Below, one piece after another: positions 35,351 through 64,000 of a DNA stretch of 64,000 nucleotides. The notes under the pieces were generated by a model. It was not told the origin of the DNA. It did no database searches and saw only the letters and a program-made list of their open reading frames with translations. Origin of the DNA: Brachycybe producta (Eukaryota; Arthropoda; Diplopoda; Playtdesmida; Andrognathidae); NCBI GenBank assembly GCA_036925085.1, contig JAUPFP010000149.1, forward strand, positions 81,228 to 145,227, read 5' to 3'. Every line of letters begins with the position of its first letter. Within the stretch, counting starts at the first letter, position 1. The translations under genes and the position numbers were made by a program.

Positions 35351-36547
35351 TGAAGTTAAATTTGAAGTTGAACTTGAATGTAAAGTTGAAGTTGAAGTTA
35401 AGTTTGAAATTGAAGTTGAAATTGAAGTTGAAATTGAAGTTGAAATTGAAGTTGAAATTGAAGTTGAAATTGAAGTTGAAATTGAAGTTGAAATTGAAGT
35501 TGAAATTGAAGTTGAAATTGAAGTTGAAATTGAAGTTGAAATTGAAGTTGAAATTGAAGTTGAAATTAAAGTTGAAATTGATGTTGAAATTGAAGTTGAA
35601 ATTGAAGTTAAAATTGAAGTTTAAGTTTAAGTTGAAGTTAAAGTTGAAGTTAAGTTAAATTTGAAGTTGAACTTGAAGGTTAAGTTGAAGTTAAAGTTAA
35701 GTTTGAAATTGAAGTTGACATTGAAATTGAAGTTGACATTGAAATTGAAGTTGAAATTGAAGTTGAAATTGAAGTTGAAATTGAAGTTGAAATTGAAGTT
35801 GAAATTGAAGTTGAAATTGAAGTTGAAATTGAAGTTGAAATTGAAGTTGAAATTGAAGTTGAAATTGAAGTTAAAATTGAAGTTGAAACTGAAGTTGAAA
35901 TTGAAGTTGTAATTGAAGTTGAAATTGAAGTTAAAATTGAAGTTGAAATTGATGTTGAAATTGAAGTTGAAATTGAAGTAGAAATTGAAGTTGAAATTGA
36001 AGTTGAAATTGAAGTTGAAATTGAAGTTGAAATTGAAGTTGAAATTGAAGTTGAAATTGAAGTTGAAATTGAAGTTAAAATTGAAGTTTAAGTTTAAGTT
36101 AAGGTTAAGGTTAAAGTTGAAGTTGAAGTTGAATTTGAAGTTGAAATTGAAGTTGAAATTGAAGTTGAATTTGAAGTTAAAATTGAAGTTAAAATTGAAG
36201 TTTAAGTTGAAGTTGAAGTTAAAGTTGAAGTTGAAGTTAAAGTTGAAGTTGAAGTTAAATTTGAAGTTGAACTTGAATGTAAAGTTGAAGTTGAAGTTAA
36301 GTTTGAAATTGAAATTGACATTGAACTTGAAGTCGACATTGAAATTGAAGTTGAAATTGAAGTTGAAATTGAAGTTGAAATTGAAGTTGAAATTGAAGTT
36401 GAAATTGAAGTTGAAGTTGAAGTTGAATTTGAAGTTGAAATTGAAGTTTAAGTTTAATTGAAGTTAAAGTTGAAGTTGAAGTTGAATTTGAAGTTGAACT
36501 TGAAAGTGAAGTTAAAGTTGAAGTTGAAGTTAAGTTGAAGTTGAAGT

Positions 36548-36572
36548 TGTAACGTCCCGCCGGACCGTTACA
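36548..36572. other. Terminal hairpin at the 3' end of the island
   Basis: TGTAACG (36548-36554) and CGTTACA (36566-36572) are perfect inverses. TCC (36555-36557) and GGA (36562-36564) extend the stem across one bulged C, leaving the loop CGCC. The outer end coincides with the satellite junction. Ends of the form TGTAACG...CGTTACA occur at termini of some LTR elements, but no partner long terminal repeat was found at 41300. Confidence 0.6.
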
Positions 36573-36886
36573 ATAACCCCAGTAAGTTCCACGTAAAAAA
36601 CACGAAAAACTTACCGCACAACCGGCTCCTTCCGGGGACGGGACCGTACCCGTAGCCGTCTCCCGCACGGTGCTCCCTGAGTTGTGCCGGCTCCACGGAG
36701 CCACCCTCGACAGACACGACGAAAAACCACGCCACCACGCCGAGAATAACGCGGTAGAACTCCGGTTCTACCGCGAGCCGACACGAAGACCGGCCGAAAC
36801 AAGTCGGAAACAGGACGGTGGTGATACCCCAACCGGTAATCCCACCCTCCCCCGCGGTACTTCCCCAAGAAACGACACGACACGAG
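36573..36886 (-). other. Island 3' flank beyond the poly(A) signal, no gene seen
   Basis: This GC-rich stretch holds another perfect 11-bp hairpin (36750-36760/36765-36775, loop TCCG) and a 7-bp hairpin (36582-36588/36608-36614). Minus-strand frames of 90-116 codons cross it but have no recognisable features and overlap each other. In an LTR-type element it could correspond to an R-U5 region, but nothing proves that. Confidence 0.4.
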
Positions 36887-36922
36887 GTAAGTGATGAAAA
36901 AGTGTATTTATTAAACACTTAC
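36887..36922 (-). terminator. Poly(A) signal AATAAA within a hairpin loop
   Basis: The minus strand reads AATAAA at 36912-36907, about 515 bp downstream of the stop codon of the long frame. It sits in the 9-base loop between AAGTGT (36900-36905) and ACACTT (36915-36920). GTAAGTG (36887-36893) and CACTTAC (36916-36922) offer an alternative longer pairing. Position and strand fit 3' end formation for the island transcript. Confidence 0.55.
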
Positions 36923-36968
36923 GACGTATGAAAGATGAAATACGATGGCAGTAACGATATTTACACAA

Positions 36969-37386
36969 CTTGGCTGGTAATTCTCTACCAGCCAAGCCCC
37001 CATAAATATACAAACAAAAGCCTAATGGCCAAAGGCACAAAAGAAGAAGATGAGGCACTGGCCAGTGGAGGTCTACCTTGACCTCCACCCACAGGTCTAG
37101 TCTTGATCACTGCCTACCACCAACTGCCCAGATCCTGTGGTTGACTAGGCCACAGGAAACCTCCAGGCAACTCCACCTGGAGGGGACAGAGGTCACATCT
37201 GACCTCTCACCCATAGACTTCATGGTGAGAGGTCTGCTGGCACCAAAATGGCGTCCGTCCCAACAGCCTACTGTAGCTGTCAGGCAGACCACCATAGGGA
37301 AATTCGTCTGCTCCACCAAAATTAAAAATGGAGCAGACCAGGTTGCCACAATCCTCTCAACTTCCCTGTTCCGTCTCGGGAACAGG
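36969..37386 (-). other. Hairpin cluster in the 3' non-coding region
   Basis: Seven perfect stem-loops lie in 418 bp between the stop codon and the AATAAA. They are 36969-36979/36986-36996 (11 bp), 37066-37073/37080-37087 (8), 37134-37140/37150-37156 (7), 37160-37167/37176-37183 (8), 37201-37211/37224-37234 (11), 37306-37315/37329-37338 (10) and 37365-37372/37379-37386 (8). Loops are 6 to 13 bases. The first six also lack any plausible reading frame. The arrangement suggests a strongly structured 3' untranslated RNA. Confidence 0.75.
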
Positions 37387-37427
37387 TCAGTCAAGCCAGC
37401 CAGGATTGCTCCCCGAACCTGACCTTC

Positions 37428-40400
37428 TTAGGTACCGGACGGCTTCTCTGGCGGTGTCGCGAAAGTGGAGCCCATCCACTCCGCAGCCCACCGACGTGCC
37501 CACCACAAGCACATCTGGGTGTTACGCCACCCAAAACCAGTATCAAAAGCTGTCCCCCTAAGACGGCTTTCCTCCAGGGCTCGGAATTCCTCAAAAGGAA
37601 TATCCTGGAGTTGCGGACGCGTGCGAAGCGTCCGACTTGTTAGGAGGTCTACCAGGGCAACCGCGGGCTCGGTCTCGCACCCTGGTAGAGGCTCAGTAAT
37701 AAACTGTCCAGCCATACCTCCTAAGTCGCATCCCAGCAAACGTTGGATGAATGGGGCTGCACGCCGGGCTAGACGAACTATCCCGGCATCTAGTCCCACC
37801 ACATCCAAAATAGCAAACGTTTGCTGGACCGGATTTACAACCATAATCACCGGAAAACCTCCACAACCAAACGCCACCACATGGCGCATGTTGTACGGCG
37901 GTAGCCTTGCTACCCACGGTTCTGGAAGTGGCTCATCCAGACGGTAGTAACCGTGGTATTGGCAACCCTCCATTCCCGGTTGGTCCTGCCAGAGACCAAG
38001 CCGGTTATTCAGATACACCTCTGCATCTGAATACGGGGGCAATGCGCCAATACGCCGTCCCTCGGCCTCAGGCCTAGGGGAGGTTGACGTTTCAGGTCCT
38101 AGGGTATCGAATACCCCACCGCCATGGACCGGAGAGAAGGATGTACCCCTACTGGGGGTCACGGGGTCACGTTTGGCAGGAACACTAACTCCTGCAACCA
38201 AGGTTCCTTCGCCCCTAGGTGAGGGCAAAGTCACCCGGTGCAGGGTTCCCACCGCTCGAACCCGCAGGCTCGAGACCGCATCCACCTTCGGGGAGGATGG
38301 AGGCGTGCCGACCAAAACGTCGCGCATCGACCTACCATCCATCCGCGCCGCCTCAACGGGACGGGTATGGACCGGTTGACTCCCGGCCGGCGTGCTTGCC
38401 TGAGCACGCCGGGACTCCTCCTTTTCCGCCACGACGCCTCCAGTTTTGGCTCCCTGGCGCCTACTACTGGAGGGTGTCGGACTTCCCTTCCTCTCACGCT
38501 TGGACCTCTTCCGGTCCTTCTTATTTTTCTTTTTCTTCCCGTGAGAGGAAGGTTGACCATGCGTCGGGTCAGACTTAACTGACCCCGACGACTTACTGGG
38601 CCGATCGGGCTTAGGAGGGTGGTTAGCCCCCTTCGCCTTCTCGGACTCCTTCTTCGAAGGTTTTCCGGCCGGAGCCGTACTCTTCTTTGAAGAAGTGCCC
38701 TTAGCCGAAGTGACAGCCGAGGATGACTGTCCGGAAACAAATCTTCCTCGACCATCCCGAAGGAGAGACTTCTCCTTCGGTGCAAGAGTCGGCTGACTCT
38801 TGCCACCAGTCGCTTTGGCTTCCGCACCATGGGCTGGTGCACTGGAAGCCTGCATCGCCTCCCTCTCGGCGATTCGCTTCTGGCCAGCGATGGTCGTGGC
38901 ACTCGCAATAGGCGGGGCACCACGACCGACAGGAGGTTCCCCTGTTTTGAGCGGACTCCGGGCGGGCATTCCCTGCAGGGGAGGGAACTCCGCAGCCCGG
39001 CGCTCAAACTCCTGCCGCTCTCCTGCACCGACCGCACGAGCGATTTGTCGGTGCAGGCTCGCTGCTTGAGCCTGAAGCCGTTTGAGCTTAACCTCTAAGC
39101 TCTCGGGCTTCCGAGGTTCGGAGGCCTTTCCTCGACCTGAGGACCTGGCCTTCTTACCTCTCGAGCTTTCAGCCACTGGTGGGGTGTGAGGGCGGGACCT
39201 CTTTTGTCCCTTACCACCACCACCACTCACAGATTTTCCCATTTTACCGGGAGCGGGTACTGGAGGCTGGGTAGCCTTCTTCTCCGCTCGCCGGTCCCTC
39301 TTCGGGTTGTCCGACCGCCAGCCGGAGGGGCCAGCTACTGCCTCGGGCGGACCCGATCCAGCAGCCGGCTTCTCTGGCCAAGCAGCCCCTGGACAACCTT
39401 CAGGGTGGGCAAGAGTTTCCGCTCGCAGCCCCACAGCAGGCGTGAACTTCTTCAACGCCTCCTCCTTAGCTTTGAGCAGAGCCTCTCTCTCTGCGAGAGC
39501 CTTGGCTCTGGCAGTGATCCGTGCGGCTCCGGACTTTTTCTTGCGCTTCCTTGTGCCGTCCTTCCTCACCTGCACGGTTGGAAACTCCCCGACGAAGCAC
39601 CGACGGTCCCCGACCAGGAAGCCACCTTCCTGGACCATGTCCCGTCTAGCTTCGTCCAACCGATCCAAGCGGTCTTCTTCTTCGGCCAAGGACACAGCCA
39701 CGGCCTCCAAAGACATTGGATCGGCGGGAAGTACTCCGGGGGATCCCGTCCCAGACGGTTTACCCTCGGAGGCCGAACTACTCCCGTCAAACTCCGAAGA
39801 GCCCTCTGAAGAGGTGTTGCGGCTCCGCCACTGCCTTGAGGCGTCCACCACCGAATCAACGGTGGTTTCGACCTCCATCTCCGTGTCAATGACTAAGGAC
39901 GCTCCCAAGGAGACGTCCTCACTGTCTTCGACCACCCTAGACCAATCTAGGAGGTCTCGAACAGACGGAGACCCGGGTTCCGGGGTACTAGCGGTTACCA
40001 CACCAGTAGCCGCTTTCCCACCATCAACACCCGCTTCTGCAGTCTCTCCAACCGGAGAAACTACCGCCGCCACCGACTGAACGGTGGTAGCAGCCGTATC
40101 TCTGGTAGGAGACTGCAGGTATCTGCCCCAGAAGGCTCCGACACCGGTCGGAGTCGACTGGGCAGATGCCGGACCTTCCACGGCCTCTGCCGCCGGGGAA
40201 TCACCAGATTCCACGGTGGCGTCAGCCGTTTCCGGTCCGCCAGATGATGGGGAGCCCTCCGATCCCGACTCCAACAGCCTTGCATCCCCAGGATGCAGCG
40301 GGCTGAGGGAGGGGGACCGTTGGCCACTCCCGTCGCCTTCCTCCTTCTCCTTCTCCGTGATGGGCCTGCGAAAAAGGGACAAAACCGTTAAAAACAAGGT

Positions 40401-41237
40401 TTTACCAAGGAAAAGTGAATTCCACGGACTTTTACCGTGAGAATTCCTGTTTTCACCGTCCAAAGTCGGTAATTCACGGTCATAACCGTGTTTTACCGTC
40501 TTCGTCCGGTGGAAACAACTTTTCCCCCTTTCAGAACCGGTAGAAAGAGTATTCCACGGGTTTTCACCGTGCGAATCGCGGTTTCCACCGTCCAAAGTCG
40601 GTGAACCACGGTAAAAACCATGATTAACCACCTTCGGACGGTGAAAACACCCTTTCACCGAGTTCCGACGGTTGGAAAGGGCATTGCACGGACTTCTACC
40701 GTGCAAAATGCCGTTTTCACCGTCCAAAGTCGGCAACTCACGGTCAAAACCGTGTTTCACCGCCTTCGATCGGTGAAAACCACTCCCTGGCGGGCTTCTA
40801 CCATCCAAACTCTGTCGAACCTGGGCCTTCCCAAGCGAAACGGCGCTCGGACGGGCTGAACCCGCCGGAAAAGTGCTTTCCACAGTGGCTTGGCCTCCAT
40901 GACAACAGTCATGGCGGCGAAACCACTCCCACCACGTGTGTATACGGTCAATGACCGTAAAACACACCGTTAACATATAAAAGAGAACTGCCAACAGGCA
41001 GGAGAAGGAAATACCCTTAGAGGGACTTACTTTTTCAATATTGCCCTCGATTTCCAGCTCTTGGTGGCCTCCTTGACGGTGAATTCTGGTTATTTTTCCT
41101 GAACCACGTGCGGCCGGCGTTTTTTGTTTAAGTTTGTAAACAAAATGGCGCCTAGCCGCCAAATTCACCGTCTTAGCGGCTAATGGCCGTGCAGTAGCGG
41201 CTAAAACGTCATTAGCCGCCTCATGCAGGGTCACCAT
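37428..41237 (-). CDS. Hypothetical disordered gag-like protein, about 1269 aa
   Basis: No family was recognised. An uninterrupted minus-strand frame runs from ATG at 41237 (context tccATGg) to TAA at 37430-37428; an earlier start at 41276 would be GTG and is unlikely in a eukaryote. Residues are numbered from the ATG. Residues 70-291 overlap an intron-like segment with three 44-residue repeats starting FHRxK. Residues 292-550 are rich in Ser, Gly, Glu and Pro. A basic patch (RKDGTRKRKKK) lies near 559-569 and could be a nuclear localisation or RNA-binding signal. A charged helical stretch lies near 575-600. A second likely coiled coil (709-750) ends in AEFPPL. A Lys/Arg-rich tract (GKKKKNKKDRKRSKRERK) lies near 897-915. 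The last 205 residues or so, from about 1064, look globular, with many hydrophobic, Trp and Gly residues. There is no CCHC knuckle, protease DSG/DTG or RT motif. The layout resembles retroelement gag or ORF1 proteins, but that is inference. The correct start or exon structure is unsettled. Confidence 0.55.
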   Translation of the reverse strand: MVTLHEAANDVLAATARPLAAKTVNLAARRHFVYKLKQKTPAARGSGKITRIHRQGGHQELEIEGNIEKVSPSKGISFSCLLAVLFYMLTVCFTVIDRIHTWWEWFRRHDCCHGGQATVESTFPAGSARPSAVSLGKAQVRQSLDGRSPPGSGFHRSKAVKHGFDRELPTLDGENGILHGRSPCNALSNRRNSVKGCFHRPKVVNHGFYRGSPTLDGGNRDSHGENPWNTLSTGSERGKSCFHRTKTVKHGYDRELPTLDGENRNSHGKSPWNSLFLGKTLFLTVLSLFRRPITEKEKEEGDGSGQRSPSLSPLHPGDARLLESGSEGSPSSGGPETADATVESGDSPAAEAVEGPASAQSTPTGVGAFWGRYLQSPTRDTAATTVQSVAAVVSPVGETAEAGVDGGKAATGVVTASTPEPGSPSVRDLLDWSRVVEDSEDVSLGASLVIDTEMEVETTVDSVVDASRQWRSRNTSSEGSSEFDGSSSASEGKPSGTGSPGVLPADPMSLEAVAVSLAEEEDRLDRLDEARRDMVQEGGFLVGDRRCFVGEFPTVQVRKDGTRKRKKKSGAARITARAKALAEREALLKAKEEALKKFTPAVGLRAETLAHPEGCPGAAWPEKPAAGSGPPEAVAGPSGWRSDNPKRDRRAEKKATQPPVPAPGKMGKSVSGGGGKGQKRSRPHTPPVAESSRGKKARSSGRGKASEPRKPESLEVKLKRLQAQAASLHRQIARAVGAGERQEFERRAAEFPPLQGMPARSPLKTGEPPVGRGAPPIASATTIAGQKRIAEREAMQASSAPAHGAEAKATGGKSQPTLAPKEKSLLRDGRGRFVSGQSSSAVTSAKGTSSKKSTAPAGKPSKKESEKAKGANHPPKPDRPSKSSGSVKSDPTHGQPSSHGKKKKNKKDRKRSKRERKGSPTPSSSRRQGAKTGGVVAEKEESRRAQASTPAGSQPVHTRPVEAARMDGRSMRDVLVGTPPSSPKVDAVSSLRVRAVGTLHRVTLPSPRGEGTLVAGVSVPAKRDPVTPSRGTSFSPVHGGGVFDTLGPETSTSPRPEAEGRRIGALPPYSDAEVYLNNRLGLWQDQPGMEGCQYHGYYRLDEPLPEPWVARLPPYNMRHVVAFGCGGFPVIMVVNPVQQTFAILDVVGLDAGIVRLARRAAPFIQRLLGCDLGGMAGQFITEPLPGCETEPAVALVDLLTSRTLRTRPQLQDIPFEEFRALEESRLRGTAFDTGFGWRNTQMCLWWARRWAAEWMGSTFATPPEKPSGT
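40366..41030 (-). other. Intron-like segment inside the long reading frame
   Basis: On the minus strand a consensus donor, AAAAA|GTAAGT, lies at 41031/41030. A strong acceptor, CCCTTTTTCGCAG|G, preceded by TTTTTAAC, ends at 40366. The 665 bp between them hold the 132-bp repeats and a hydrophobic translated stretch with no resemblance to the flanking protein. However, 665 is not a multiple of three. Splicing exactly here would put the upstream ATG frame out of phase with the downstream long frame, and the in-phase upstream frame hits TAA before any ATG. The segment is therefore either a true intron in a non-coding leader or alternative transcript, or coding sequence with chance splice-like sites. 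Confidence 0.45.
40383..40778 (-). repeat. 132-bp tandem repeat, three copies
   Basis: Three diverged units begin at 40778, 40646 and 40514 (minus strand), exactly 132 bp apart. Each carries a CACCG start, the core CCGACTTTGGACGGTG and a CACGG(N7)CCGTG hairpin. Their translation aligns as FHRxKxVxHGxxR...PTLDGxN...HGxxPxNxL. A partial fourth unit may lie just upstream. Because 132 is a multiple of three, an open frame across all copies does not by itself prove coding. The many ACGGT/ACCGT pairs suggest repeated binding sites or a structured RNA. Confidence 0.75.
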
Positions 41238-41243
41238 GGAGAT

Positions 41244-41284
41244 TTCACCGTCGTCTGCCTTTTTAGGGGCAGACACACGGTGAA
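41244..41284 (-). other. Terminal hairpin at the 5' end of the island
   Basis: TTCACCGT (41244-41251) plus GTCTGCC (41253-41259) pairs with GGCAGAC (41268-41274) plus ACGGTGAA (41277-41284). This gives 15 base pairs interrupted only by a 1x2 internal loop, around an 8-base loop. The first ATG of the long frame begins 7 bases inside the stem base, so the hairpin would sit in the leader of a transcript. It could be a structured 5' untranslated region, a retroelement end or an encapsidation-type signal; the role is unknown. Confidence 0.6.
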
Positions 41285-41300
41285 TTCTCCTACACCAACC

Positions 41301-44300
41301 AAGTTAAGTTTGAAATTGAAGTTGAAATTGAAGTTGAAATTGAAGTTGAAATTGAAGTTGAAATTGAAGTTGAAATTGAAGTTGAAATTGAAGTTGAAAT
41401 TGAAGTTGAAATTGAAGTTGAAATTGAAGTTGAAATTGAAGTTGAAATTGAAGTTGAAATTGAAGTTGAAATTGAAGTTGAAATTGAAGTTAAAATTGAA
41501 GTTGAAACTGAAGTTGAAATTGAAGTTGAAATTGAAGTTGAAATTGAAGTTGAAATTTAAGTTGAAATTTAAGTTGAAATTGAAGTTGAAATTGAAGTTA
41601 AAATTGAAGTTGAAACTGAAGTTGAAATTGAAGTTGAAATTGAAGTTGAAATAGAAGTTGAAATTGAAGTTGAAATTGAAGTTGAAATTGAAGTTGAAAT
41701 TGAAGTTGAAATTGAAGTTGAAATTGAAGTTGAAATTGAAGTTGAAATTGAAGTTGAAATTGAAGTTAAAATTGAAGTTGAAACTGAAGTTGAAATTGAA
41801 GTTGAAATTGAAGTTGAAATTGAAGTTGAAATTTAAGTTGAAATTTAAGTTGAAATTGAAGTTGAAAATGAAGTTGAAATTGAAGTTGAAATTGAAGTTG
41901 AAATTGAAGTTGAAATTGAAGTTGAAATTGAAGTTGAAATTGAAGTTGAATTTGAAGTTGAAATTGAAGTTAAAATTGAAGTTGAAACTGAAGTTGAAAT
42001 TGAAGTTAAAATTGAATTTTAAGTTGAAGTTGAAGTTAAAGTTGAAGTTGAAGTTAAATTTGAAGTTGAACTTGAATGTAAAGTTGAAGTTGAAGTTAAG
42101 TTTGAAATTGAAGTTGAAATTGAAGTTGAAATTGAAGTTGAAATTGAAGTTGAAATTGAAGTTGAAGTTGAAGTTGAAATTGAAGTTGAAATTGAAGTTG
42201 AAATTGAAGTTAAAATTGAAGTTTAAGTTTAAGTTAAGGTTAAGGTTAAAGTTGAAGTTGAAGTTGAATTTGAAGTTGAAATTGAAGTTGAAATTGAAGT
42301 TGAATTTGAAGTTAAAATTGAAGTTAAAATTGAATTTTAAGTTGAAGTTGAAGTTAAAGTTGAAGTTGAAGTTAAATTTGAAGTTGAACTTGAATGTAAA
42401 GTTGAAGTTGAAGTTAAGTTTGAAATTGAAGTTGAAATTGAAGTTGAAATTGAAGTTGAAATTGAAGTTGAAGTTGAAGTTGAATTTGAAGTTGAAATTG
42501 AAGTTTAAGTTTAATTGAAGTTAAAGTTGAAGTTGAAGTTCAATTTGAAGTTGAACTTGAAAGTGAAGTTAAAGTTGAAGTTGAAGTTAAGTTGAAGTTG
42601 AAGTTAAGTTTGAAATTGAAGTGGAAGTTGAAATTGAAGTTGAAATTGAAGTTGAAATTGAAGTTGAAATTGAAGTTGAAATTGAAGTTGAAATTGAAGT
42701 TGAAATTGAAGTTGAAATTGAAGTTGAAATTGAAGTTAAAATTGAAGTTGAAACTGAAGTTGAAATTGAAGTTGTAATTGAAGTTGAAATTGAAGTTAAA
42801 ATTGAAGTTGAAATTGATGTCAAAATTGAAGTTGAAGTTGAAATTGAAGTTGAAATTGAAGTTGAAATTGAAGTTGAAATTGAAGTTGAAATTGAAGTTG
42901 AAATTGAAGTTGAAGTTGAAGTTGAATTTGAAGTTGAAATTGAAGTTTAAGTTTAATTGAATTTAAAGTTGAAGTTGAAGTTCAGTTTGAAGTTGAACTT
43001 GAAAGTGAAGTTAAAGTTGAAGTTGAAGTTAAGTTGAAGTTGAAGTTAAGTTTGAAATTGAAGTGGAAGTTGAAATTAAAGTTGAAATTGAAGTTGAAAT
43101 TGAAGTTGAAATTGAAGTTGAAATTGAAGTTGAAATTGAAGTTGAAATTGAAGTTGAAATTGAAGTTGAAATTGAAGTTAAAATTGAAGTTGAAACTGAA
43201 GTTGAAATTGAAGTTGTAATTGAAGTTGAAATTGAAGTTAAAATTGAAGTTGAAATTGATGTTAAAATTGAAGTTGAAGTTGAAGTTGAAATTGAAGTTG
43301 AAATTGAAGTTGATATTGAAGTTGAAATCGAAGTTGAAATTGAAGTCGAAATTGAAATCAAAGTTGATATTGAAGTTAAAATTGAAGTTGAAATTGATGT
43401 TGAAATTGAAGCTGAAATTGAAGTTAAAATTGAAGTTTAAGTTTAAGTTAAGGTTAAGGTTAAAGTTGAAGTTGAAGTTGAATTTGAAGTTGAAATTGAA
43501 GTTGAAATTGAAGTTGAATTTGAAGTTAAAATTGAAGTTAAAATTGAAGTTTAAGTTGAAGTTGAAGTTAAAATTGAAGTTGAAGTTAAATTTGAAGTTG
43601 AACTTGAACGTAAAGTTGAAGTTGAAGTTAAGTTTGAAATTGAAATTGACATTGAACTTGAAGTCGACATTGAAATTGAAGTTGAAATTGAAGTTGAAAT
43701 TGAAGTTGAAATTGAAGTTGAAATTGAAGTTGAAATTGAAGTTGAAATTGAAGTTGAAATTGAAGTTGAAATTGAAGTTGAAATTGAAGTTGAAATTGAA
43801 GTTGAAATTGAAGTTGAAATTGAAGTTGAAATTGAAGTTAAAATTGAAGTTGAAACTGAAGTTGAAATTGAAGTTGAAATTGAATTTGAAATTGAAGTTG
43901 AAATTTAAGTTGAAATTGAAGTTGAAATTGAAGTTGAAAATGAAGTTGAAATTGAAGTTGAAATTGAAGTTGAAATTAAAGTTGAAATTGAAGTTGAAAT
44001 TGAAGTTGAATTTGAAGTTGAAATTGAAGTTAAAATTGAAGTTGAAACTGAAGTTGAAATTGAAGTTAAAATTGAATTTTAAGTTGAAGTTGAAGTTAAA
44101 GTTGAAGTTAAAGTTGAAGTTGAAGTTAAATTTGAAGTTGAACTTGAATGTAAAGTTGAAGTTGAAGTTAAGTTTGAAATTGAAGTTGAAATTGAAGTTG
44201 AAATTGAAGTTGAAATTGAAGTTGAAATTGAAGTTGAAGTTGAAGTTGAAATTGAAGTTGAAATTGAAGTTGAAATTGAAGTTAAAATTGAAGTTTAAGT

Positions 44301-50700: not shown

Positions 50701-51900
50701 GTTTAAGTTAAGGTTAAGGTTAAGTTGAAGTTGAAGTTGAATTTGAAGTTGAAATTGAAGTTGAAATGAAGTTGAATTTGAAGTTAAAATTGAAGTTAAA
50801 TTGAATTTTAAGTTGATGTTGAAGTTAAAGTTGATGTTGAAGTTAATTTGAAGTTGACTTGAATGTAAAGTTGAAGTTGAAGTTAAGTTTGAAATTGAAG
50901 TTGAATTGAAGTTGAAATTGAAGTTGAAATTGAAGTTGAAGGTGAAGTTGAATTTGAAGTTGAAATTGAAGTTTAAGGTTTAATTGAAGTTAAAGTTGAA
51001 GTTGAAGTTCAATTTGAAGTTGAACTTGAAAGTGAAGTTAAGTTGAAGTTGAAGTTAAGTTGAAGTTGAAGTTGATGTTTTGATTGGAAGTTGAATTGAA
51101 GTTGAAATTGAAGTTGATATTGAAGTTGAAATTGAAGGTGAAATTGAAGTTGAATTGAAGTTGAATTTGAAGTTGAATTGAAGTGAATTTGAAGTGAATT
51201 AAATTGAGTTGAAGTGAACTGAAGTTGAAATTGAAGTTGTAATTGAAGTTGAAATTGAAGTTAAAATTGAAGTTGATATTGATGTTAAATTGAAGTTGAA
51301 GTTGAATTGTAGTGAATTTGAAGTTGATATTGTAGTTGAAATTGAAGTTGAATTGAAGTTGAAATTGAAGTTGAAGTGAAGTTGAATTTGAAGTTGAAAT
51401 TGAAGTTTAAGTTTATTGAAGTTAATGTGAAGTTGAAGGTCAGTTTGAAGTTGAACTTGTAAGTGAAGTTAAAGTGTTGAAGTAGTTAAGTTGAAGGTTG
51501 TGATGTGATTTGTAGTGGTAGTGGTAAGTTGTAATGGTATGTTGAATTGAAGTGGTGAATTGGATGGTGAAATTGAAGTTGAATTTGAAGTTGAATGTAG
51601 TTGAATTGAAGTGGAATTGAAGTTGAATTGATGGTGTGTAATTGGTTGTGTAATGTGTTGGAATTCGGATGTTGTATTGAAGTTGAAGTGAAGTTGTATT
51701 TGTAGTGTTATTGGTAGTGATATTGGATGGTAATTTGGGTAGTGGATGGTGAAGTTGATTTGGTTGTGGTTGAGTAGTGAAGTTGATTTCGAGGTGTATT
51801 GAAGTCGAATTGGGAATTATATTATGTGTGTTGATGGTATATTGGTTGTTGATTGTGATGGGGTTTGGTTGAGAGTTTGGGATGGTGTATTGGGTTGGGT
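50700..51900. repeat. Degenerate transition from satellite to G-rich repeat
   Basis: The hexamer phase is lost step by step. First come single-base losses (from about 50340), then mixed units such as GAAGGTGAAG and GAAGTGAATTTG. From about 51480 there are TGGTAGTGGTAAG-like stretches with rising G and falling A. No gene, conserved cassette or clean repeat is visible between 51480 and 51900. It may be genuinely decayed array or a region of poor sequence accuracy. Confidence 0.7.
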
Positions 51901-52600
51901 AGGGGTTGGGTTGGGGTTGGGGTTTGGGGTTGGGGTTGGGGTTGGGTTGGTGTTTGGTTGGTGTTTGGGTAGGTGTTGGGTTGGGTTTATGGTTGGGTTT
52001 TTGGTTGGGGTTGGGGTTGGGGTTGGGTTTTGGTTGGGGTTGGGTTTGGGGTTGGGGTTCGGGTTCGGTTTGGGGTTGGGGTTGGGTTGGGGGTTTGGGT
52101 TTGGGTCTGGGTTAGGGTTGGAGTCTGGGTTTGGGTTGGGGTTTGGGTTGGGGTTTGGGTTGGGGTTTGGGTTGGGGTTTGGGTTGGGGTTTGGGTTGGG
52201 GTTTGGGTTGGGGTTTGGGTTGGGGTTTGGGTTGGGGTTTGGGTTGGGGTTTGGGTTGGGGTTTGGGTTGGGTTTTGGGTTGGGGTTTCGGTTGGGGTTT
52301 GGGTTGGGGTTTGGGTTGGGGTTTGGGTTGGGGTTTGGGTTGGGGTTTGGGTTGGGGTTTGGGTTGGGGTTTTGGTTGGGGTTTGGGTTGGGGTTTGGGT
52401 TGGGGTTTGGGTTGGGGTTTGGTTGGGGTTTGGGTTGGGGTTTGGGTTGGGGTTGGGGTTGGGGTTTGGGTTGGGTTTTGGGTTGGGGTTTAGGTTGGGG
52501 TTTGGGTTGGGTTTTTGGGTTGGGGTAGGGGTTGGGGTTGGGTTTGGGGTTGGGGTTGGGTTTGGGGTTGGGGTTAGGGTTGGGTTTGGGGTTGGGGTTG
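51900..52600 (+). repeat. GGGGTT/GGGTTT G-rich repeat block
   Basis: The + strand is nearly all G and T in runs of three or four G separated by two or three T. In the core (52130-52480) GGGTTGGGGTTT units alternate regularly. The motifs resemble G-strand telomeric repeats in form and would readily form G-quadruplexes. Frames encoding Gly-Leu, Gly-Val and Trp-Gly repeats are by-products. Confidence 0.85.
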
Positions 52601-52665
52601 GGTTGGGGGTGAGAGCGAGGGGAAGAAGAAGAAGGGGGGGGGGGGGTGTGTGTGATTTAGGTTAG
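52600..52665. other. Short non-repeat joint with a 13-G run
   Basis: Between two different G-rich arrays lies GAGAGCGAGGGGAAGAAG, more GAA, 13 consecutive G (52634-52646), then TGTGTGTG and the start of the GGATTA array. It is the only non-hexamer sequence in this part of the window and coincides with the centre (about 52657) of the flanking inverted duplication. Confidence 0.75.
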
Positions 52666-55600
52666 GATTAGGATTAGGGTATGGATTGGGATTAGGATTT
52701 GGGTTAGGATTAGGATTAGGGTTAGGATTAGGATTAGGTTTTGGATTGGGGTTAGGATTGGGATTAGGATGGGGATTAGGATTGGGGTTAGGATTGGGAT
52801 TAGGATTTGGATTAGGATTGGGATTAGGATTGGGATTAGGATTGGGATTAGGATTGGGATTAGGATTGGGATTAGGATTGGGATTAGGATGGGGATTAGG
52901 ATTGGGATTAGGATTGGGATTAGGTTTGGGATTAGGATTGGGATTAGGATTGGGATTAGGATTGGGATTAGGATGGGGATTAGGATTGGGGTTAGGATTG
53001 GGATTAGGATTGGGATTAGGATTGGGATTAGGATTGGGATTAGGATTGGGATTAGGATTGGGATTAGGATTGGGATTAGGATTGGGATTAGGATTGGGAT
53101 TAGGATTGGGATTAGGATTGGGATTAGGATTGGGATTGGGAGTAGGATTGGGATTGGGATTGGGATTGGGATTTAGGTTAGGATTAGGATTAGGGTAGGG
53201 ATTGGGATTAGGATTTGGGTTAGGATTAGGATTGGGGTTAGGATTAGGATTAGGTTTAGGATTGGGGTTTGGATTGGGGTTAGGATTTGGATTAGGATTG
53301 GGATTAGGATTGGGATTAGGATTTGGATTAGGATTAGGATTAGGGTTAAGGTTAAGGTTAGGTTTAGGTTTAGGATTGGGGTTAGGATTGGGATGAGGAT
53401 TGGGATTATGATTGGGATTAGGATTGGGGTTAGGATTGTGATTAGGGGTGGGATTGGGAGTAGGATTGGGATTAGGAGTGGGATTAGGATTGTGATTAGG
53501 ATTGGGATTAGGATTGGGATTAGGATTAGGATTAGGATTGGGGTTATGATTGGGATTAGGATTGGGGTTAGGATTGGGATTAGGATTGGTATTAGGATTG
53601 GGATTAGGATGGGGATTAGGATTGGGGTTAGGATTGGGATTAGGATTGGGATTAGGATTGGGATTAGGATTGGGATTAGGATTGGGATTAGGATTGGGAT
53701 TAGGATTGGGATTAGGATTGGGATTAGGATTGGGATTAGGATTGGGATTAGGGTTGGGATTAGTAATAGGATTGGGATTTAGGTTAGGATTAGGATTAGG
53801 TTAGGATTAGGATTAGGGTTAGGATAGGGATTGGGATTAGGATTTAGGTTAGGATTAGGATTAGGGTTAGGATTGGTTTAGGTTTAGGATTGGGATTAGG
53901 ATTTGGATTAGGATTAGGATTAGGATTGGGATTAGGATTGGGATTAGGATTGGGATTAGGATTGGGATTAGGATTGGGATTAGGATTGGGATTAGGATTA
54001 GGATTGGGGTTATGATTGGGATTAGGATTGGGGTTAGGATTGGGATTAGGATTGGTATTAGGATTGGGATTAGGATGGGGATTAGGATTGGGGTTAGGAT
54101 TGGGATTAGGATTGGGATTAGGATTGGGATTAGGATTGGGATTAGGATTGGGATTAGGATTGGGATTAGGATTGGGATTAGGATTGGGATTAGGATTGGG
54201 ATTAGGAATAGGATTGGGATTTAGGTTAGGATTAGGATTAGGTTAGGATTAGGATTAGGGTTAGGATAGGGATTGGGATTAGGATTTGGGTTAGGATTAG
54301 GATTAGGGTTAGGATTGGTTTAGGTTTAGGATTGGGATTAGGATTTGGATTAGGATTAGGATTAGGATTGGGATTAGGATTGGGATTAGGATTGGGATTA
54401 GGATTGGGATTTAGGTTAGGATTAGGATTAGGGTATGGATTGGGATTAGGATTTGGGTTAGGATTAGGATTAGGGTTAGGATTAGGATTAGGTTTTGGAT
54501 TGGGGTTAGGATTGGGGTTAGGATTTGGATTAGGATTGGGATTAGGATTGGGATTAGGATTTGGATTAGGATTAGGATTAGGGTTAAGGTTAAGGTTAGG
54601 TTTAGGTTTAGGATTGGGGTTAGGATTGGGATTAGGATTGGGATTAGGATTGGGATTAGGATTAGGATTAGGATTGGGATTAGGATTGGGATTAGGATTG
54701 GGATTAGGATTGGGATTAGGATTGGGATTTAGGTTAGGATTAGGATTAGGGTACTGGATTGGGATTAGGATTTGGGTTAGGATTAGGATTAGGGTTAGGA
54801 TTAGGATTAGGTTTTGGATTGGGGTTAGGATTGGGATTAGGATGGGGATTAGGATTGGGGTTAGGATTGGGATTAGGATTTGGATTAGGATTGGGATTAG
54901 GATTGGGATTAGGATTGGGATTAGGATTGGGATTAGGATTGGGATTAGGATTGGGATTAGGATGGGGATTAGGATTGGGATTAGGTTTGGGATTAGGTTT
55001 TGGGATTAGGATTGGGATTAGGATTGGGATTAGGATTGGGATTAGGATGGGGATTAGGATTGGGGTTAGGATTGGGATTAGGATTGGGATTAGGATTGGG
55101 ATTAGGATTGGGATTAGGATTGGGATTAGGATTGGGATTAGGATTGGGATTAGGATTGGGATTAGGATTGGGATTAGGAGTGGGATTAGGATTGGGATTA
55201 GGATTGGGATTAGGATTGGGATTAGGATGGGGATTAGGATTGGGATTAGGATTGGGATTAGGATTGGGATTAGGATTGGGATTAGGATTGGGATTAGGAT
55301 TGGGATTAGGATTGGGATTTAGGTTAGGATTAGGATTAGGGTATGGATTGGGATTAGGATTTGGGTTAGGATTAGGATTAGGGTTAAGGTTAAGGTTAGG
55401 TTTAGGTTTAGGATTGGGGTTAGGATTGGGATTAGGATTGGGATTAGGATTGGGATTAGGATTAGGATTAGGATTGGGATTAGGATTGGGATTAGGATTG
55501 GGATTAGGATTGGGATTAGGATTGGGATTTAGGTTAGGATTAGGATTAGGGTATGGATTGGGATTAGGATTTGGGTTAGGATTAGGATTAGGGTTAGGAT

Positions 55601-58600
55601 TAGGGTTAGGATTAGGATTAGGTTTTGGATTGGGGTTAGGATTGGGATTAGGATGGGGATTAGGATTGGGGTTAGGATTGGGATTAGGATTTGGATTAGG
55701 ATTGGGATTAGGATTGGGATTAGGATTGGGATTAGGATTGGGATTAGGATTGGGATTAGGATTGGGATTAGGATGGGGATTAGGATTGGGATTAGGATTG
55801 GGATTAGGTTTGGGATTAGGATTGGGATTAGGATTGGGATTAGGATTGGGATTAGGATGGGGATTAGGATTGGGGTTAGGATTGGGATTAGGATTGGGAT
55901 TAGGATTGGGGATTAGGATTGGGATTAGGATTGGGATTAGGATTGGGATTAGGATTGGGATTAGGATTGGGATTAGGATTGGGATTAGGATTGGGATTAG
56001 GATGGGGATTAGGATTGGGATTAGGTTTGGGATTAGGTTTGGGATTAGGATTGGGATTAGGATTGGGATTAGGATTGGGATTAGGATGGGGATTAGGATT
56101 GGGGTTAGGATTGGGATTAGGATTGGGATTAGGATTGGGATTAGGATTGGGATTAGGATTGGGATTAGGATTGGGATTAGGATTGGGATTAGGATTGGGA
56201 TTAGGATTGGGATTAGGAGTGGGATTAGGATTGGGATTAGGATTGGGATTAGGATTGGGATTAGGATGGGGATTAGGATTGGGATTAGGATTGGGATTAG
56301 GATTGGGATTAGGATTGGGATTAGGATTGGGATTAGGATTGGGATTAGGATTGGGATTTAGGTTAGGATTAGGATTAGGGTATGGATTGGGATTAGGATT
56401 TGGGTTAGGATTAGGATTAGGGTTAAGGTTAAGGTTAGGTTTAGGTTTAGGATTGGGGTTAGGATTGGGATTAGGATTGGGATTAGGATTGGGATTAGGA
56501 TTAGGATTAGGATTGGGATTAGGATTGGGATTAGGATTGGGATTAGGATTGGGATTAGGATTGGGATTTAGGTTAGGATTAGGATTAGGGTATGGATTGG
56601 GATTAGGATTTGGGTTAGGATTAGGATTAGGGTTAGGATTAGGGTTAGGATTAGGATTAGGTTTTGGATTGGGGTTAGGATTGGGATTAGGATGGGGATT
56701 AGGATTGGGGTTAGGATTGGGATTAGGATTTGGATTAGGATTGGGATTAGGATTGGGATTAGGATTGGGATTAGGATTGGGATTAGGATTGGGATTAGGA
56801 TGGGGATTAGGATTGGGATTAGGATTGGGATTAGGTTTGGGATTAGGATTGGGATTTGGATTGGGATTAGGATTGGGATTAGGATGGGGATTAGGATTGG
56901 GGTTAGGATTGGGATTAGGATTGGGATTAGGATTGGGATTAGGATTGGGATTAGGATTGGGATTAGGATTGGGATTAGGATTGGGATTAGGATTGGGATT
57001 AGGATTGGGATTAGGATTGGGATTAGGATTGGGATTAGGATTGGGATTAGGATTGGGATTGGGAGTAGGATTGGGATTGGGATTGGGATTGGGATTTAGG
57101 TTAGGATTAGGATTAGGGTAGGGATTGGGATTAGGATTTGGGTTAGGATTAGGATTGGGGTTAGGATTAGGATTAGGTTTAGGATTGGGGTTAGGATTGG
57201 GGTTAGGATTTGGATTAGGATTGGGATTAGGATTGGGATTAGGATTTGGATTAGGATTAGGATTAGGGTTAAGGTTAAGGTTAGGTTTAGGTTTAGGATT
57301 GGGGTTAGGATTGGGATGAGGATTGGGATTATGATTGGGATTAGGATTGGGGTTAGGATTGTGATTAGGGGTGGGATTGGGAGTAGGATTGGGATTAGGA
57401 GTGGGATTAGGATTGTGATTAGGATTGGGATTAGGATTGGGATTAGGATTAGGATTAGGATTGGGGTTATGATTGGGATTAGGATTGGGGTTAGGATTGG
57501 GATTAGGATTGGTATTAGGATTGGGATTAGGATGGGGATTAGGATTGGGGTTAGGATTGGGATTAGGATTGGGATTAGGATTGGGATTAGGATTGGGATT
57601 AGGATTGGGATTAGGATTGGGATTAGGATTGGGATTAGGATTGGGATTAGGGTTGGGATTAGGAATAGGATTGGGATTTAGGTTAGGATTAGGATTAGGT
57701 TAGGATTAGGATTAGGGTTAGGATAGGGATTGGGATTAGGATTTAGGTTAGGATTAGGATTAGGGTTTGGATTGGTTTAGGTTTAGGATTGGGATTAGGA
57801 TTTGGATTAGGATTAGGATTAGGATTGGGATTAGGATTGGGATTAGGATTGGGATTAGGATTGGGATTAGGATTGGGATTAGGATTGGGATTAGGATTAG
57901 GATTGGGGTATGATTGGGATTAGGATTGGGGTTAGGATTGGGATTAGGATTGGTATTAGGATTGGGATTAGGATGGGGATTAGGATCTGGGGTTAGGATT
58001 GGGATTAGGATTGGGATTAGGATTGGGATTAGGATTGGGATTAGGATTGGGATTAGGATTGGGATTCGGATTGGGATTAGGATTGGGATTAGGATTGGGA
58101 TTAGGAATAGGATTGGGATTTAGGTTAGGATTAGGATTAGGTTAGGATTAGGATTAGGGTTAGGATAGGGATTGGGATTAGGATTTGGGTTAGGATTAGG
58201 ATTAGGGTTAGGATTGGTTTAGGTTTAGGATTGGGATTAGGATTTGGATTAGGATTAGGATTAGGATTGGGATTAGGATTGGGATTAGGATTGGGATTAG
58301 GATTGGGATTTAGGTTAGGATTAGGATTAGGGTATGGATTGGGATTAGGATTTGGGTTAGGATTAGGATTAGGGTTAGGATTAGGATTAGGTTTTGGATT
58401 GGGGTTAGGATTGGGATTAGGATGGGGATTAGGATTGGGGTTAGGATTGGATTAGGATTGGATTAGGATTGGGATTAGGATTGGGATTAGGATTGGGATT
58501 AGGATTGGGATTAGGATTGGGATTAGGATTGGGATTAGGATGGGGATTAGGATTGGGATTAGGTTTGGGATTAGGTTTGGGATTAGGATTGGGATTAGGA

Positions 58601-59650
58601 TTGGGATTAGGATTGGGATTAGGATGGGGATTAGGATTGGGGTCTAGGATTGGGATTAGGATTGGGATTAGGATTGGGATTAGGATTGGGATTAGGAATT
58701 GGGATTAGGATTGGGATTAGGATTGGGATTAGGATTGGGATTAGGATTGGGATTAGGAGTGGGATTAGGATTGGGATTAGGATTGGGATTAGGATTTGGA
58801 TTAGGATTAGGATTAGGATTGGGATTAGGATTGGGATTAGGATTGGGATTAGGATTGGGATTAGGATTGGGATTAGGATTGGGATTAGGATTAGGATTGG
58901 GGGTATGATTGGGATTAGGATTGGGGTTAGGATTGGGATTAGGATTGGTATTAGGATTGGGATTAGGATGGGGATTAGGATTGGGGTTAGGATTGGGATT
59001 AGGATTGGGATTAGGATTGGGATTAGGATTGGGATTAGGATTGGGATTAGGATTGGGATTAGGATTGGGATTAGGATTGGGATTAGGATTGGGATTAGGA
59101 ATAGGATTGGGATTTAGGTTAGGATTAGGATAGGTTAGGAATAGGATTAGGGTTAGGATAGGGATTGGGATTAGGATTTGGGTTAGGATTAGGATTAGGG
59201 TTAGGATTGGTTTAGGTTTAGGATTGGGATTAGGATTTGGATTAGGATTAGGATTAGGATTGGGATTAGGATTGGGATTAGGATTGGGATTAGGATTGGG
59301 ATTTAGGTTAGGATTAGGATTAGGGTCATGGATTGGGATTAGGATTTGGGTTAGGATTAGGATTAGGGTTAGGATTAGGATTAGGTTTTGGATTGGGGTT
59401 AGGATTGGGATTAGGATGGGGATTAGGATTGGGGTTAGGATTGGGATTAGGATTTGGATTAGGATTGGGATTAGGATTAGGGATTAGGGATTGGGATTAG
59501 GATTGGGATTAGGATTGGGATTAGGATGGGGATTAGGATTGGGATTAGGTTTGGGATTAGGTTTGGGATTAGGATTGGGATTAGGATTGGGATTAGGATT
59601 GGGATTAGGATGGGGATTAGGATTGGGGATTAGGATTGGGATTAGGATTG
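52665..59650 (+). repeat. GGATTA/GGATTG telomere-like array, about 7 kb
   Basis: The array is made of hexamers AGGATT and GGGATT, usually alternating as a 12-bp unit (TTAGGATTGGGA). Recurring cassettes contain GGTTAGG, GGTTAAGGTTAAGG, GGTTTAGG and GGATTTAGG. Canonical (TTAGGG)n and (TTAGG)n occur only as short variant stretches, so this is telomere-like, not a normal telomere. All G-rich units lie on the + strand. Higher-order copies are seen: 52769-53782 recurs at 56692-57681 (offset 3923), and units near 55322 recur at 56361 (offset 1039). Frames coding Gly-Leu and Gly-Ile-Arg repeats are by-products. No gene is seen. Confidence 0.92.
52769..57703 (+). repeat. Higher-order duplication inside the telomere-like array
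   Basis: The cassette series 52769, 53202 and 53393 is repeated at 56692, 57125 and 57316, each exactly 3923 bp later. This includes the rare ATTAGGGGTGGGATTGGGAG and GGTTAAGGTTAAGG variants. Between them a 1039-bp unit is tandemly duplicated. Long-range homogenisation of this kind is typical of satellites, not of an active telomere end. Confidence 0.75.
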
Positions 59651-59756
59651 GGATTAGGATTTGACTTAATTGGGACTTAGGATTGGAATTCAGATTGGAC
59701 TTCAGATTTGGACTTCGAATTGGCATAGGATTGGGATTAGATTGATTAGATTGCAG
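59650..59756. other. Junction between telomere-like array and inverted satellite
   Basis: About 100 bp of mixed sequence contains GGACTTAGGATTGG, GAATTCAGATTGG, GACTTCGAATTGG and TAGATTGATTAGATTGCAG, then the C-rich satellite strand begins. The + strand changes here from C-free to G-free. No duplication or element end was recognised. Confidence 0.75.
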
Positions 59757-62700: not shown

Positions 62701-64000
62701 TTCAAACTTAACTTCAACTTCAACTTAACTTCAACTTCAACTTTAACTTCACTTTCAAGTTCAACTTCAAATTGAACTTCAACTTCAACTTTAACTTCAA
62801 TTAAACTTAAACTTCAATTTCAACTTCAAATTCAACTTCAACTTCAACTTCAATTTCAACTTCAATTTCAACTTCAATTTCAACTTCAATTTCAAACTTA
62901 ACTTCAACTTCAACTTTACATTCAAGTTCAACTTCAAATTTAACTTCAACTTCAACTTTAACTTCAACTTCAACTTAAAATTCAATTTTAACTTCAATTT
63001 TAACTTCAAATTCAACTTCAATTTCAACTTCAATTTCAACTTCAAATTCAACTTCAACTTCAACTTTAACCTTAACCTTAACTTAAACTTAAACTTCAAT
63101 TTTAACTTCAATTTCAACTTCAATTTCAACTTCAATTTCAACTTCAACTTCAACTTCAATTTCAACTTCAATTTCAACTTCAATTTCAACTTCAATTTCA
63201 ACTTCAATTTCAAACTTAACTTCAACTTCAACTTTACATTTCAAGTTCAACTTCAAATTTAACTTCAACTTCAACTTTAACTTCAACTTCAACTTAAAAT
63301 TCAATTTTAACTTCAATTTCAACTTCAGTTTCAACTTCAATTTTAACTTCAATTTCAACTTCAAATTCAACTTCAATTTCAACTTCAATTTCAACTTCAA
63401 TTTCAACTTCAATTTCAACTTCAATTTCAACTTCAATTTCAACTTCATTTTCAACTTCAATTTCAACTTAAATTTCAACTTAAATTTCAACTTCAATTTC
63501 AACTTCAATTTCAACTTCAATTTCAACTTCAGTTTCAACTTCAATTTTAACTTCAATTTCAACTTCAATTTCAACTTCAATTTCAACTTCAATTTCAACT
63601 TCAATTTCAACTTCAATTTCAACTTCAATTTCAACTTCAATTTCAACTTCAATTTCACTTCTATTTCAACTTCAATTTCAACTTCAATTTCAACTTCAGT
63701 TTCAACTTCAATTTTAACTTCAATTTCAACTTCAATTTCAACTTAAATTTCAACTTAAATTTCAACTTCAATTTCAACTTCCAATTTCAACTTCAATTTC
63801 AACTTCAGTTTCAACTTCAATTTTAACTTCAATTTCAACTTCAATTTCAACTTCAATTTCAACTTCAATTTCAACTTCAATTTCAACTTCAATTTCAACT
63901 TCAATTTCAACTTCAATTTCAACTTCAATTTCAACTTCAATTTCAACTTCAATTTCAACTTCAATTTCAACTTCAATTTCAACTTCAATTTCAACTTCAA
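59757..64000 (-). repeat. Inverted satellite block, right arm of the large inverted duplication
   Basis: The sequence is the GAAGTT/GAAATT satellite read on the minus strand. It matches 41316-45555 cassette by cassette in reverse order. Differences are chiefly single-base gains or losses (for example near 60111, 60181, 60713, 61018, 61226, 63241, 63657 and 63781), plus a rearranged patch near 62370-62480. The GTCGAC cassette appears at 61646-61651. It runs off the window end. No gene is present. Confidence 0.92.

Follow-up and report, generated by a model that had tools for sequence, protein, structure and literature searches.

We found that satellite DNA in the millipede Brachycybe producta is interrupted by a 4752-bp insertion that is saturated with perfect short-loop inverted repeats and is predicted to fold, along its whole length, beyond what its composition and codon use account for (positions are those of the window, i.e. 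the whole 64,000-nt stretch analysed). We give a probability of about 0.45 to the reading that this island is a copy of a selfish element and that its RNA, 4.75 kb long, is under selection for self-folding in the manner of RNA phage genomes.

The limits of the island (36549–41300) were set by joining its flanks. With one AAGTT removed, the joined flanks (24 + 16 bases were compared) reproduce satellite sequence of which the window has 21 other intact copies, and this moves the ends from 36548 and 41284, where an earlier note on this DNA had placed them. The element, which we read 5' to 3' on the minus strand, is a precise insertion into a 12-bp satellite, flanked by a target-site duplication of at most 5 bp (AAGTT at 36544–36548, where the split between element and flank is ambiguous, and at 41301–41305). 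It has a hairpin close to the 5' end of the minus strand (41238–41290), whose base adjoins the ATG of a long open reading frame (ORF), and another at the 3' terminus (36548–36572), whose outermost base could be part of the target duplication.

These ends bear on whether the hairpins could be incidental features of an ordinary retrotransposon, be it a non-autonomous LTR or non-LTR element or a solo LTR. The target duplication of 3–5 bp and the possible TG...CA ends resemble an integrase- or LINE-type insertion, and a target duplication such as a non-LTR retrotransposon leaves is present (AAGTT, at most 5 bp). LTR retrotransposons and solo LTRs have TG...CA ends with target duplications of 4–6 bp; here, framing the ends as TG...CA leaves a duplication of only 3 bp, and framing the duplication as 5 bp gives GT...CC ends. 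There are no direct terminal repeats, as none of the element's direct repeat families connects its two ends. By eye, the ends GTAACGTCCC and GGTTGGTGTA (the latter the reverse complement of the other end) do not match as the terminal inverted repeats of a DNA transposon would. No poly(A) or repeat tail, nor any further trace of reverse transcription, was seen, the 3' end of the minus strand going directly into satellite; a satellite-like tail of the element could hide within the surrounding satellite. Pfam found no gag or pol domain in the ORF, which a solo LTR would not need. Since an ordinary retrotransposon would also leave the folding unexplained, we consider this origin quite improbable.

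Perfect stems with loops of 3–22 bases were counted in 36548–41284 and in 100 dinucleotide shuffles. We found 12 stems of at least 9 bp (shuffle mean 0.41, maximum 2), 23 of at least 8 bp (mean 1.39, maximum 6) and 42 of at least 7 bp (mean 5.39, maximum 13); the rough random expectation of about 0.4 for stems of at least 9 bp in the earlier note agrees with the first of these means. The excess is present in each part of the island, and synonymous-codon shuffling abolishes most of it in the main coding part: 40364–37428 holds 20 stems of at least 7 bp against 4.28 (maximum 12 in 300 shuffles) and 6 of at least 9 bp against 0.36 (maximum 3 in 300 shuffles). The claimed saturation with stems was thus borne out, as neither dinucleotide nor codon shuffles gave similar counts. 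Stems of 6 bp or more take up about 25% of the bases (7.5% in shuffles). The enrichment is 30-fold at loops of 4–8 nt and 1.1–1.4-fold beyond 160 nt, so the enriched loops are those physically suited to hairpins, in favour of selected folding. The stems are nested 19 times and cross 8 times, against 12.1 (SD 3.5) and 10.7 (SD 3.3) under random relocation, so nesting is not clearly in excess.

All ten stems of 9–11 bp that had been named by eye are present, two of them starting one base lower (37648 and 38757), and the stem at 37066, previously classed among those of 6–8 bp, has 9 bp and starts at 37065. Within the ORF are perfect stems of 10 bp (37648–37689, loop 22), 9 bp (38006–38033, loop 10), 10 bp (38387–38412, loop 6) and 11 bp (39022–39057, loop 14), as well as two adjoining stems of 10 and 9 bp with loops of 4 each (38757–38803). 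A cluster of perfect hairpins lies 3' of the ORF on the minus strand (36969–37386), formed by 36969–36996, 37065–37088, 37133–37157, 37160–37183, 37188–37207, 37201–37234, 37306–37338 and 37365–37386, and an 11-bp stem with a loop of 4 is found at 36750–36775. The 9-bp stem at 41122–41145 (loop 6) adds to the ten.

Predicted folding, which the earlier note had proposed as a check, lies far below that of shuffles on both strands, with a mean z of −4.19 and −4.23 for the two strands (46 overlapping 200-nt windows, all negative). In a single run with yardsticks, the island had mean z values of −3.69/−3.87 on the two strands, compared to −4.09/−3.41 for MS2, −3.66/−3.57 for Qbeta and −0.37/−0.04 for T7 DNA. 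Hairpin folding about as strong as that of two RNA phages suggests descent from a tightly folded RNA entity. The ORF (18 windows, 41237–37620) is 24% more stable than 60 synonymous shuffles that kept the protein and the codon pool and left dinucleotides free to vary (−1595 vs −1284, SD 19), with 17 of the 18 windows negative. Hence, fold strength in the ORF is carried largely by synonymous codon choice.

The flanking satellite served as a control for a process acting throughout the host. By DNA template switching, such a process would fill all unique host DNA with hairpins, and the island would be one of the host's ordinary genes or transposons. Stems of at least 8 bp occur at 0.44–0.52 per kb in the satellite and at 4.84 per kb in the island, and since the satellite density is about one-tenth that of the island, a host-general mutation process is less likely. 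The 46,244 bases of flanking satellite hold 21 such stems (raw count), all variants of two recurring satellite motifs, and the reverse-oriented words TTCAACTT, CAACTTCA and CAATTTCA do not occur there. The satellite is an imperfect control because tandem arrays homogenise; a variant that recurs in it contains an 8-bp stem, 16 occurrences of the reverse-oriented word TTCAATTT were counted in it, and no other unique host sequence was seen in the window to set against the island. Whole genomes can behave in this way, as nematomorph mitochondria show (PMC6649704). On balance we think a host-wide origin improbable.

The ORF, on the minus strand, has 1269 codons, from the ATG at 41237 to the TAA at 37430–37428, and its frame is open from 41303 (1291 codons); the longest frame in 200 dinucleotide shuffles has 294 codons. 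The frame runs through a part that had been called intron-like (41036–40366), where it contains 0 stops against 7.9 expected and stays open in 0 of 2000 shuffles. The best donor and acceptor by eye (near 41036 and 40366), once joined, leave the ORF frame. Because the frame stays open and this junction exits it, we dropped the intron. Stems do occur in untranslated and coding parts alike, as first described, and the intron-like label is not supported. The part 3' of the ORF is also poor in stops in the same frame (2 vs 10.9 expected). A single reassigned codon does not explain this, since the ORF stop is TAA and the next two in-frame stops, read by eye, are TGA and TAG.

By eye, the encoded protein is disordered and has a basic middle. 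Pfam scans of the ORF and the 3' frames gave no family above the cut-off and no RNA-directed RNA polymerase, and no replicase, reverse transcriptase, capsid or other hallmark domain was found with Pfam, NCBIfam and PDB sequences, where matches were sub-threshold or weak. The best of these, directly after the ATG (41019–41231, minus strand), is a possible HARE-HTH-like domain (E 0.0041, 17.9 bits vs a gathering threshold of 25.9) that lies below the Pfam cut-off and may serve as a lead only; the next best had E values of 0.12, 0.18 and 0.29. AlphaFold models of two protein pieces, made without an alignment, had pLDDT values of 48.6 and 43.6, the latter being too poor to judge the HARE-HTH question.

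Searches for homologues with three protein pieces in viral contigs gave 1, 77 and 32 pattern matches, with no relative among them. The 978-codon part gave 277 pattern matches and no relative in genome contigs, and no match by tblastn in phage records. Rfam had 0 matches at gathering in the window; below threshold, 36400–41400 matched mir-1260b (E 0.01, 29.1 of 81 bits) and aspS (E 0.95). A satellite 36-mer and a telomere-like 35-mer had no match in viral contigs, and a satellite 30-mer matched 7 genome contigs with bacterial titles, probably in repetitive coding sequence. Among the literature matches listed for satellite words, no title concerned this satellite and one concerned plant microsatellite markers.

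The imperfections of the stems differ between parts of the island. In the 3' part (37427–36548), 17 non-redundant helices comprise 141 Watson–Crick and 2 other pairs, so that non-Watson–Crick pairs make up 2 of 143, compared to 36 of 408 in the main coding part (p = 0.0017), where 39 helices were found against 13.9 in shuffles and some are thus chance. Compromised coding stems and almost perfect 3' stems are expected under selection for folding because coding and structure compete.

The same contrast bears on the chief rival, self-templated copying, in which, during reverse transcription of the element or through polymerase template switching on single strands, the growing end would fold back and take itself as template, leaving perfect hairpins throughout without use. 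Neutral decay should not spare the least constrained part, so the mismatches in coding stems and the near-perfect 3' stems count against this process; the share of bases in stems would moreover need a very high rate, and the fold energies coincide with those of two RNA phage genomes. The form of the stems speaks for it: many are perfect, their loops are short and their strength is equal on the two strands (MS2 and Qbeta likewise fold on both). Per kb, perfect stems of 8 bp or more are 3.4 times as dense as in Qbeta and 8.6 times as dense as in MS2, and stems in the island are more often perfect than in these phages. Their loops are not the stable tetraloops (0 of 12 GNRA; 1 of 12 UNCG-type, on the plus strand). 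Some arms are common to alternative stems and recur in alternating orientation, for example near 37188–37234 and 41153–41219; 27 of 97 helices in the island, tandem repeat included, were dropped for such arms, and 8 of 47 when the main coding part is taken by itself; the figures for MS2 and Qbeta are 4 of 41 and 4 of 49.

Self-templating also draws on the internal repeats, three in-frame tandem copies of 132 bp (40412–40807, minus strand; 72–73% identity to the first), each forming a hairpin of 32–33 pair positions with a 4-nt loop. No two-sided compensation is seen at the 10 variable pair positions of the three copies. On the side of selected folding, transitions away from a Watson–Crick pair lead to G-U on the ORF strand six times and to A-C once (p = 0.06). 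Divergence between the copies is nearly the same at all three codon positions; therefore, no protein-level constraint is visible. A 16-base motif of the repeat matched 5 viral contigs, and by our estimate at least that many are expected by chance.

A clear codon register, whose absence likewise suits self-templating, is not evident. The register favoured in MS2 and Qbeta is used by 20 of 74 island helices and 60 of 129 phage helices at a looser threshold (p = 0.007), and by 14 of 39 and 35 of 74 at a stricter one (p = 0.32). At neither threshold do mismatches differ significantly by codon position in either part of the island (p = 0.059 to 0.295), and the leanings of the two parts are opposite. 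GU and CA interruptions number 24:15 in the island overall, 12:1 inside the tandem repeat and 11:16 outside it. This ratio does not decide, because the positive yardsticks are close to 1:1 (MS2 11:12, Qbeta 26:26) while the negative one, T7, stands at 12:3 with the same threshold and at 27:19 with a looser one.

Precedents for self-templating exist: PMC8794818 describes template-switch events in RNA genes, and PMC6649704, in its treatment of nematomorph mitochondrial genes, names the mechanism as a possibility. Perfect short-loop stems made as reverse-complement copies would resemble those of the island, whereas the events described are in RNA genes and do not saturate a 4.75-kb protein-coding element (PMC8794818). 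The nematomorph genes share with the island perfect inverted repeats within protein-coding sequence; their palindromes reach 284 bp, with a phase bias and no excess of imperfect repeats, whereas those of the island are mostly 7–11 bp, include imperfect ones in the ORF and have no clear phase bias (PMC6649704). Nor does the satellite context of the island look mitochondrial. With points on both sides, we regard self-templating, one of two readings offered in the earlier note, as a possible though doubtful explanation. The other, selection for a folded RNA genome, fits best because fold strength is like that of MS2 and Qbeta, because it is carried largely by synonymous choice, and because coding stems are compromised while 3' stems are nearly perfect.

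The island shares with the leviviruses MS2 and Qbeta its folding z values in 200-nt windows on both strands, an excess of short-loop stems and, outside the tandem repeat, a near balance of GU and CA interruptions; in contrast to them, it is a DNA insertion in satellite, and a search for a replicase domain in it found none. Genome-scale ordered RNA structure is also a property of positive-strand RNA viruses of eukaryotes, and the island is like them in kind in its global excess of folding beyond dinucleotide composition and codon use; unlike them, it has no RNA virus protein that we could find.

If folding is selected, the element would pass through an RNA stage, in which selection would keep its RNA in local hairpins on both strands, through synonymous codon choice in the ORF and through nearly perfect stems outside it. 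A probable advantage is that the template strand and its product would each fold up rather than anneal; the RNA may also be compact, resistant to cleavage and difficult to detect as double-stranded RNA. The protein could bind this RNA through its basic middle, and we would guess that the DNA copy arose by reverse transcription of the folded RNA with the element's own or a borrowed enzyme. It is conceivable, though we hold it rather unlikely, that the island represents a class of selfish element not described before, one that integrates as DNA, with a replicating or packaged RNA that is folded on both strands over its whole length, the coding part as well, in the way of RNA phages, and that left a DNA copy flanked by a target-site duplication, and with one large protein of no known family, apparently able to bind RNA.

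To our knowledge, whole-genome RNA folding is known only from RNA viruses. Should selection be the cause, such folding extends to a chromosomal element and suggests that the element has an RNA stage; should self-templated copying be the cause, the island would be a hot spot for a process that is usually inferred one event at a time.

We scanned the island, an element embedded in a 12-base satellite, for perfect stems (9 bp or longer, loops of 3-22 bases) and found 12 at 36548-41284, where inspection by eye in the earlier note had given ten of 9-11 bp. In 100 dinucleotide-preserving shuffles, the mean was 0.41 and the maximum was 2, so the rough chance expectation of 0.4 proposed with that count was accurate. 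With interruptions permitted, helices with a score of at least 8 were similarly in excess (45 vs. 5.25, maximum 10 in 60 shuffles), and stems of at least 6 bp include about 25% of the bases of the island vs. 7.5% in 20 shuffles. As the same note had stated, untranslated, intron-like and coding parts alike contain the excess. For stems of at least 7 bp, we found 4 in the 5' 267 bases (0.19 in shuffles), 6 in the 'intron-like' 671 bases (1.25), 20 in the main coding 2938 bases (3.97), and 8 and 2 in two 3' stretches (0.59 and 0.41, respectively). Synonymous-codon shuffling of the main coding part (40364-37428) reduced its 20 stems to a mean of 4.28 (maximum 12, 300 shuffles).

The inverted-repeat excess is local, since 8-bp inverted repeats are enriched 30-fold at loops of 4-8 bases, 14-fold at 9-14, 5-fold at 15-22, 3-fold at 23-40, 6.5-fold at 41-80 and 2.7-fold at 81-160, and just 1.1-1.4-fold beyond 160. 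Direct repeats in the island are 0 to 7-fold enriched, with small counts to which a tandem repeat contributes.

We found that the flanks (24 + 16 bases), joined after removal of 36549-41300 and one AAGTT, form a sequence of which the rest of the window has 21 intact copies. Hence, the island is a 4752-bp insertion whose target-site duplication measures 5 bp at most. The island lacks direct terminal repeats, and its ends, read by eye, have neither terminal inverted repeats nor poly(A). The length of the satellite suggests a eukaryotic host.

A hairpin-making process acting on all host DNA is a less likely origin of the stems, because the flanking satellite has 0.44 and 0.52 stems of at least 8 bp per kb vs. 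4.84 in the island, a weak control since arrays homogenise. All 21 such stems in the 46,244 bases of satellite are variants of two recurring satellite motifs. A satellite variant found repeatedly in both arrays, AAGTTCAATTTGAAGTTGAACTT (2908 and other positions), makes an 8-bp stem. Moreover, three of the four reverse-oriented words tested are absent from the flanking satellite (the word TTCAATTT occurs 16 times), and 6,951 telomere-like bases lack stems of 7 bp or longer; these satellite and telomere-like values are raw counts. The degenerate telomere-like repeats (TTAGGATTGGGA) extend from about 52650 to 59650 and are reached through a G/T-rich zone with little C (51500-52650), in which satellite passes into GGGTTTGGGTTG repeats. 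Beyond them, the 12-base satellite restarts in reverse orientation (59650-64000); hence, the window has inverted satellite around telomere-like DNA.

Predicted folding of the island is stronger than that of its shuffles in all 46 overlapping 200-base windows on both strands (60 shuffles per window), with mean z of -4.19 (+) and -4.23 (-). In a single run with 40 shuffles per window, z was -3.69/-3.87 for the island (23 windows), -4.09/-3.41 for RNA phage MS2 (17 windows), -3.66/-3.57 for RNA phage Qbeta (21 windows) and -0.37/-0.04 for 15-25 kb of DNA phage T7 (20 windows). The MS2 and Qbeta genomes are globally folded, and the island matches them on both strands; however, it has more perfect stems of 8 bp or longer per kb (4.84 vs. 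0.56 for MS2 and 1.42 for Qbeta; T7 has 0.10). With protein sequence and codon pool preserved, 41237-37620 of the ORF folds 24% more stably than its synonymous shuffles do (-1595 vs. -1284, SD 19; 60 shuffles), and 17 of 18 windows were negative. Among the titles and abstract openings covered by our narrow literature search, none described a chromosomal element folded like this.

The open minus-strand frame has 1291 codons (41303 to 37431), and the longest among 200 shuffles has 294. Its first ATG (41237) adjoins a 5' hairpin. The 'intron-like' part (41036-40366) is instead read as coding, because it has 0 stops in the ORF frame vs. 7.9 expected; its other frames have 6 and 16. The 3' 880 bases (37427-36549) are also stop-poor in the ORF frame although non-coding in appearance, with 2 stops beyond the ORF end where 10.9 are expected and the other frames have 13 and 8. 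Read by eye, the ORF ends at TAA, and the two further stops are TGA and TAG. The protein, also read by eye, looks disordered with a basic middle, and had no match above threshold in Pfam, NCBIfam or PDB sequences. A sub-threshold match directly after the ATG (41019-41231; 17.9 bits, E 0.0041, cut-off 25.9) is suggestive of a HARE-HTH-like domain. In Rfam, no family reached gathering in the window, and two matches at 36400-41400 were far below it. At 40412-40807 lie three in-frame tandem 132-bp units, and the second and third share 72-73% identity with the first. All three contain a long hairpin, and their differences are nearly equal across the three codon positions.

The earlier note offered two origins, selection for a folded RNA genome and a mutation process in which sequence is templated by its own complement; we favor the first, and the second is its main rival. 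Self-templated copying during the element's own replication, which we consider less probable than selection, would agree with the equal folding of both strands, though MS2 and Qbeta share this. It would also fit the absence of a clear codon-register preference: helix excess over synonymous shuffles in the 1.3/2.2 register, which is favored in MS2 and Qbeta (9.1 and 13.2), is 9.0 in the island vs. 6.6 and 6.7 in its other two registers (island vs. phage p = 0.32; with a looser threshold, p = 0.007). Likewise, island tetraloops are not of stable kinds. Arms common to alternative stems are also more frequent than in MS2 (4 of 41 helices) and Qbeta (4 of 49): in the island they affect 27 of 97 helices when the tandem repeat is counted, and 8 of 47 in the main coding part. 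Template switching can give rise to stems of this kind (PMC8794818). No second copy of the element was found in viral, prokaryotic genome and phage collections, which were searched with three pieces of the protein (viral contigs) or with the 978-codon part (genome contigs and phage records).

Selection is favored because fold strength equals that of MS2 and Qbeta, and because stems are near-perfect in the 3' part, with 141 Watson-Crick pairs and 2 others, whereas those of the main coding part are compromised (372 and 36; Fisher p = 0.0017 against the 3' part); the 5' part has 75 and 6. This is the tug-of-war that joint selection on sequence and structure should give, as described in a nematomorph paper (PMC6649704). 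It is favored further because, among transitions leaving a Watson-Crick pair in the three 132-bp repeats, those giving G-U exceed those giving A-C on the ORF strand (6:1, p = 0.06). Our preferred reading, at a probability of roughly 0.45, is a mobile element whose RNA stage has been selected for self-folding.
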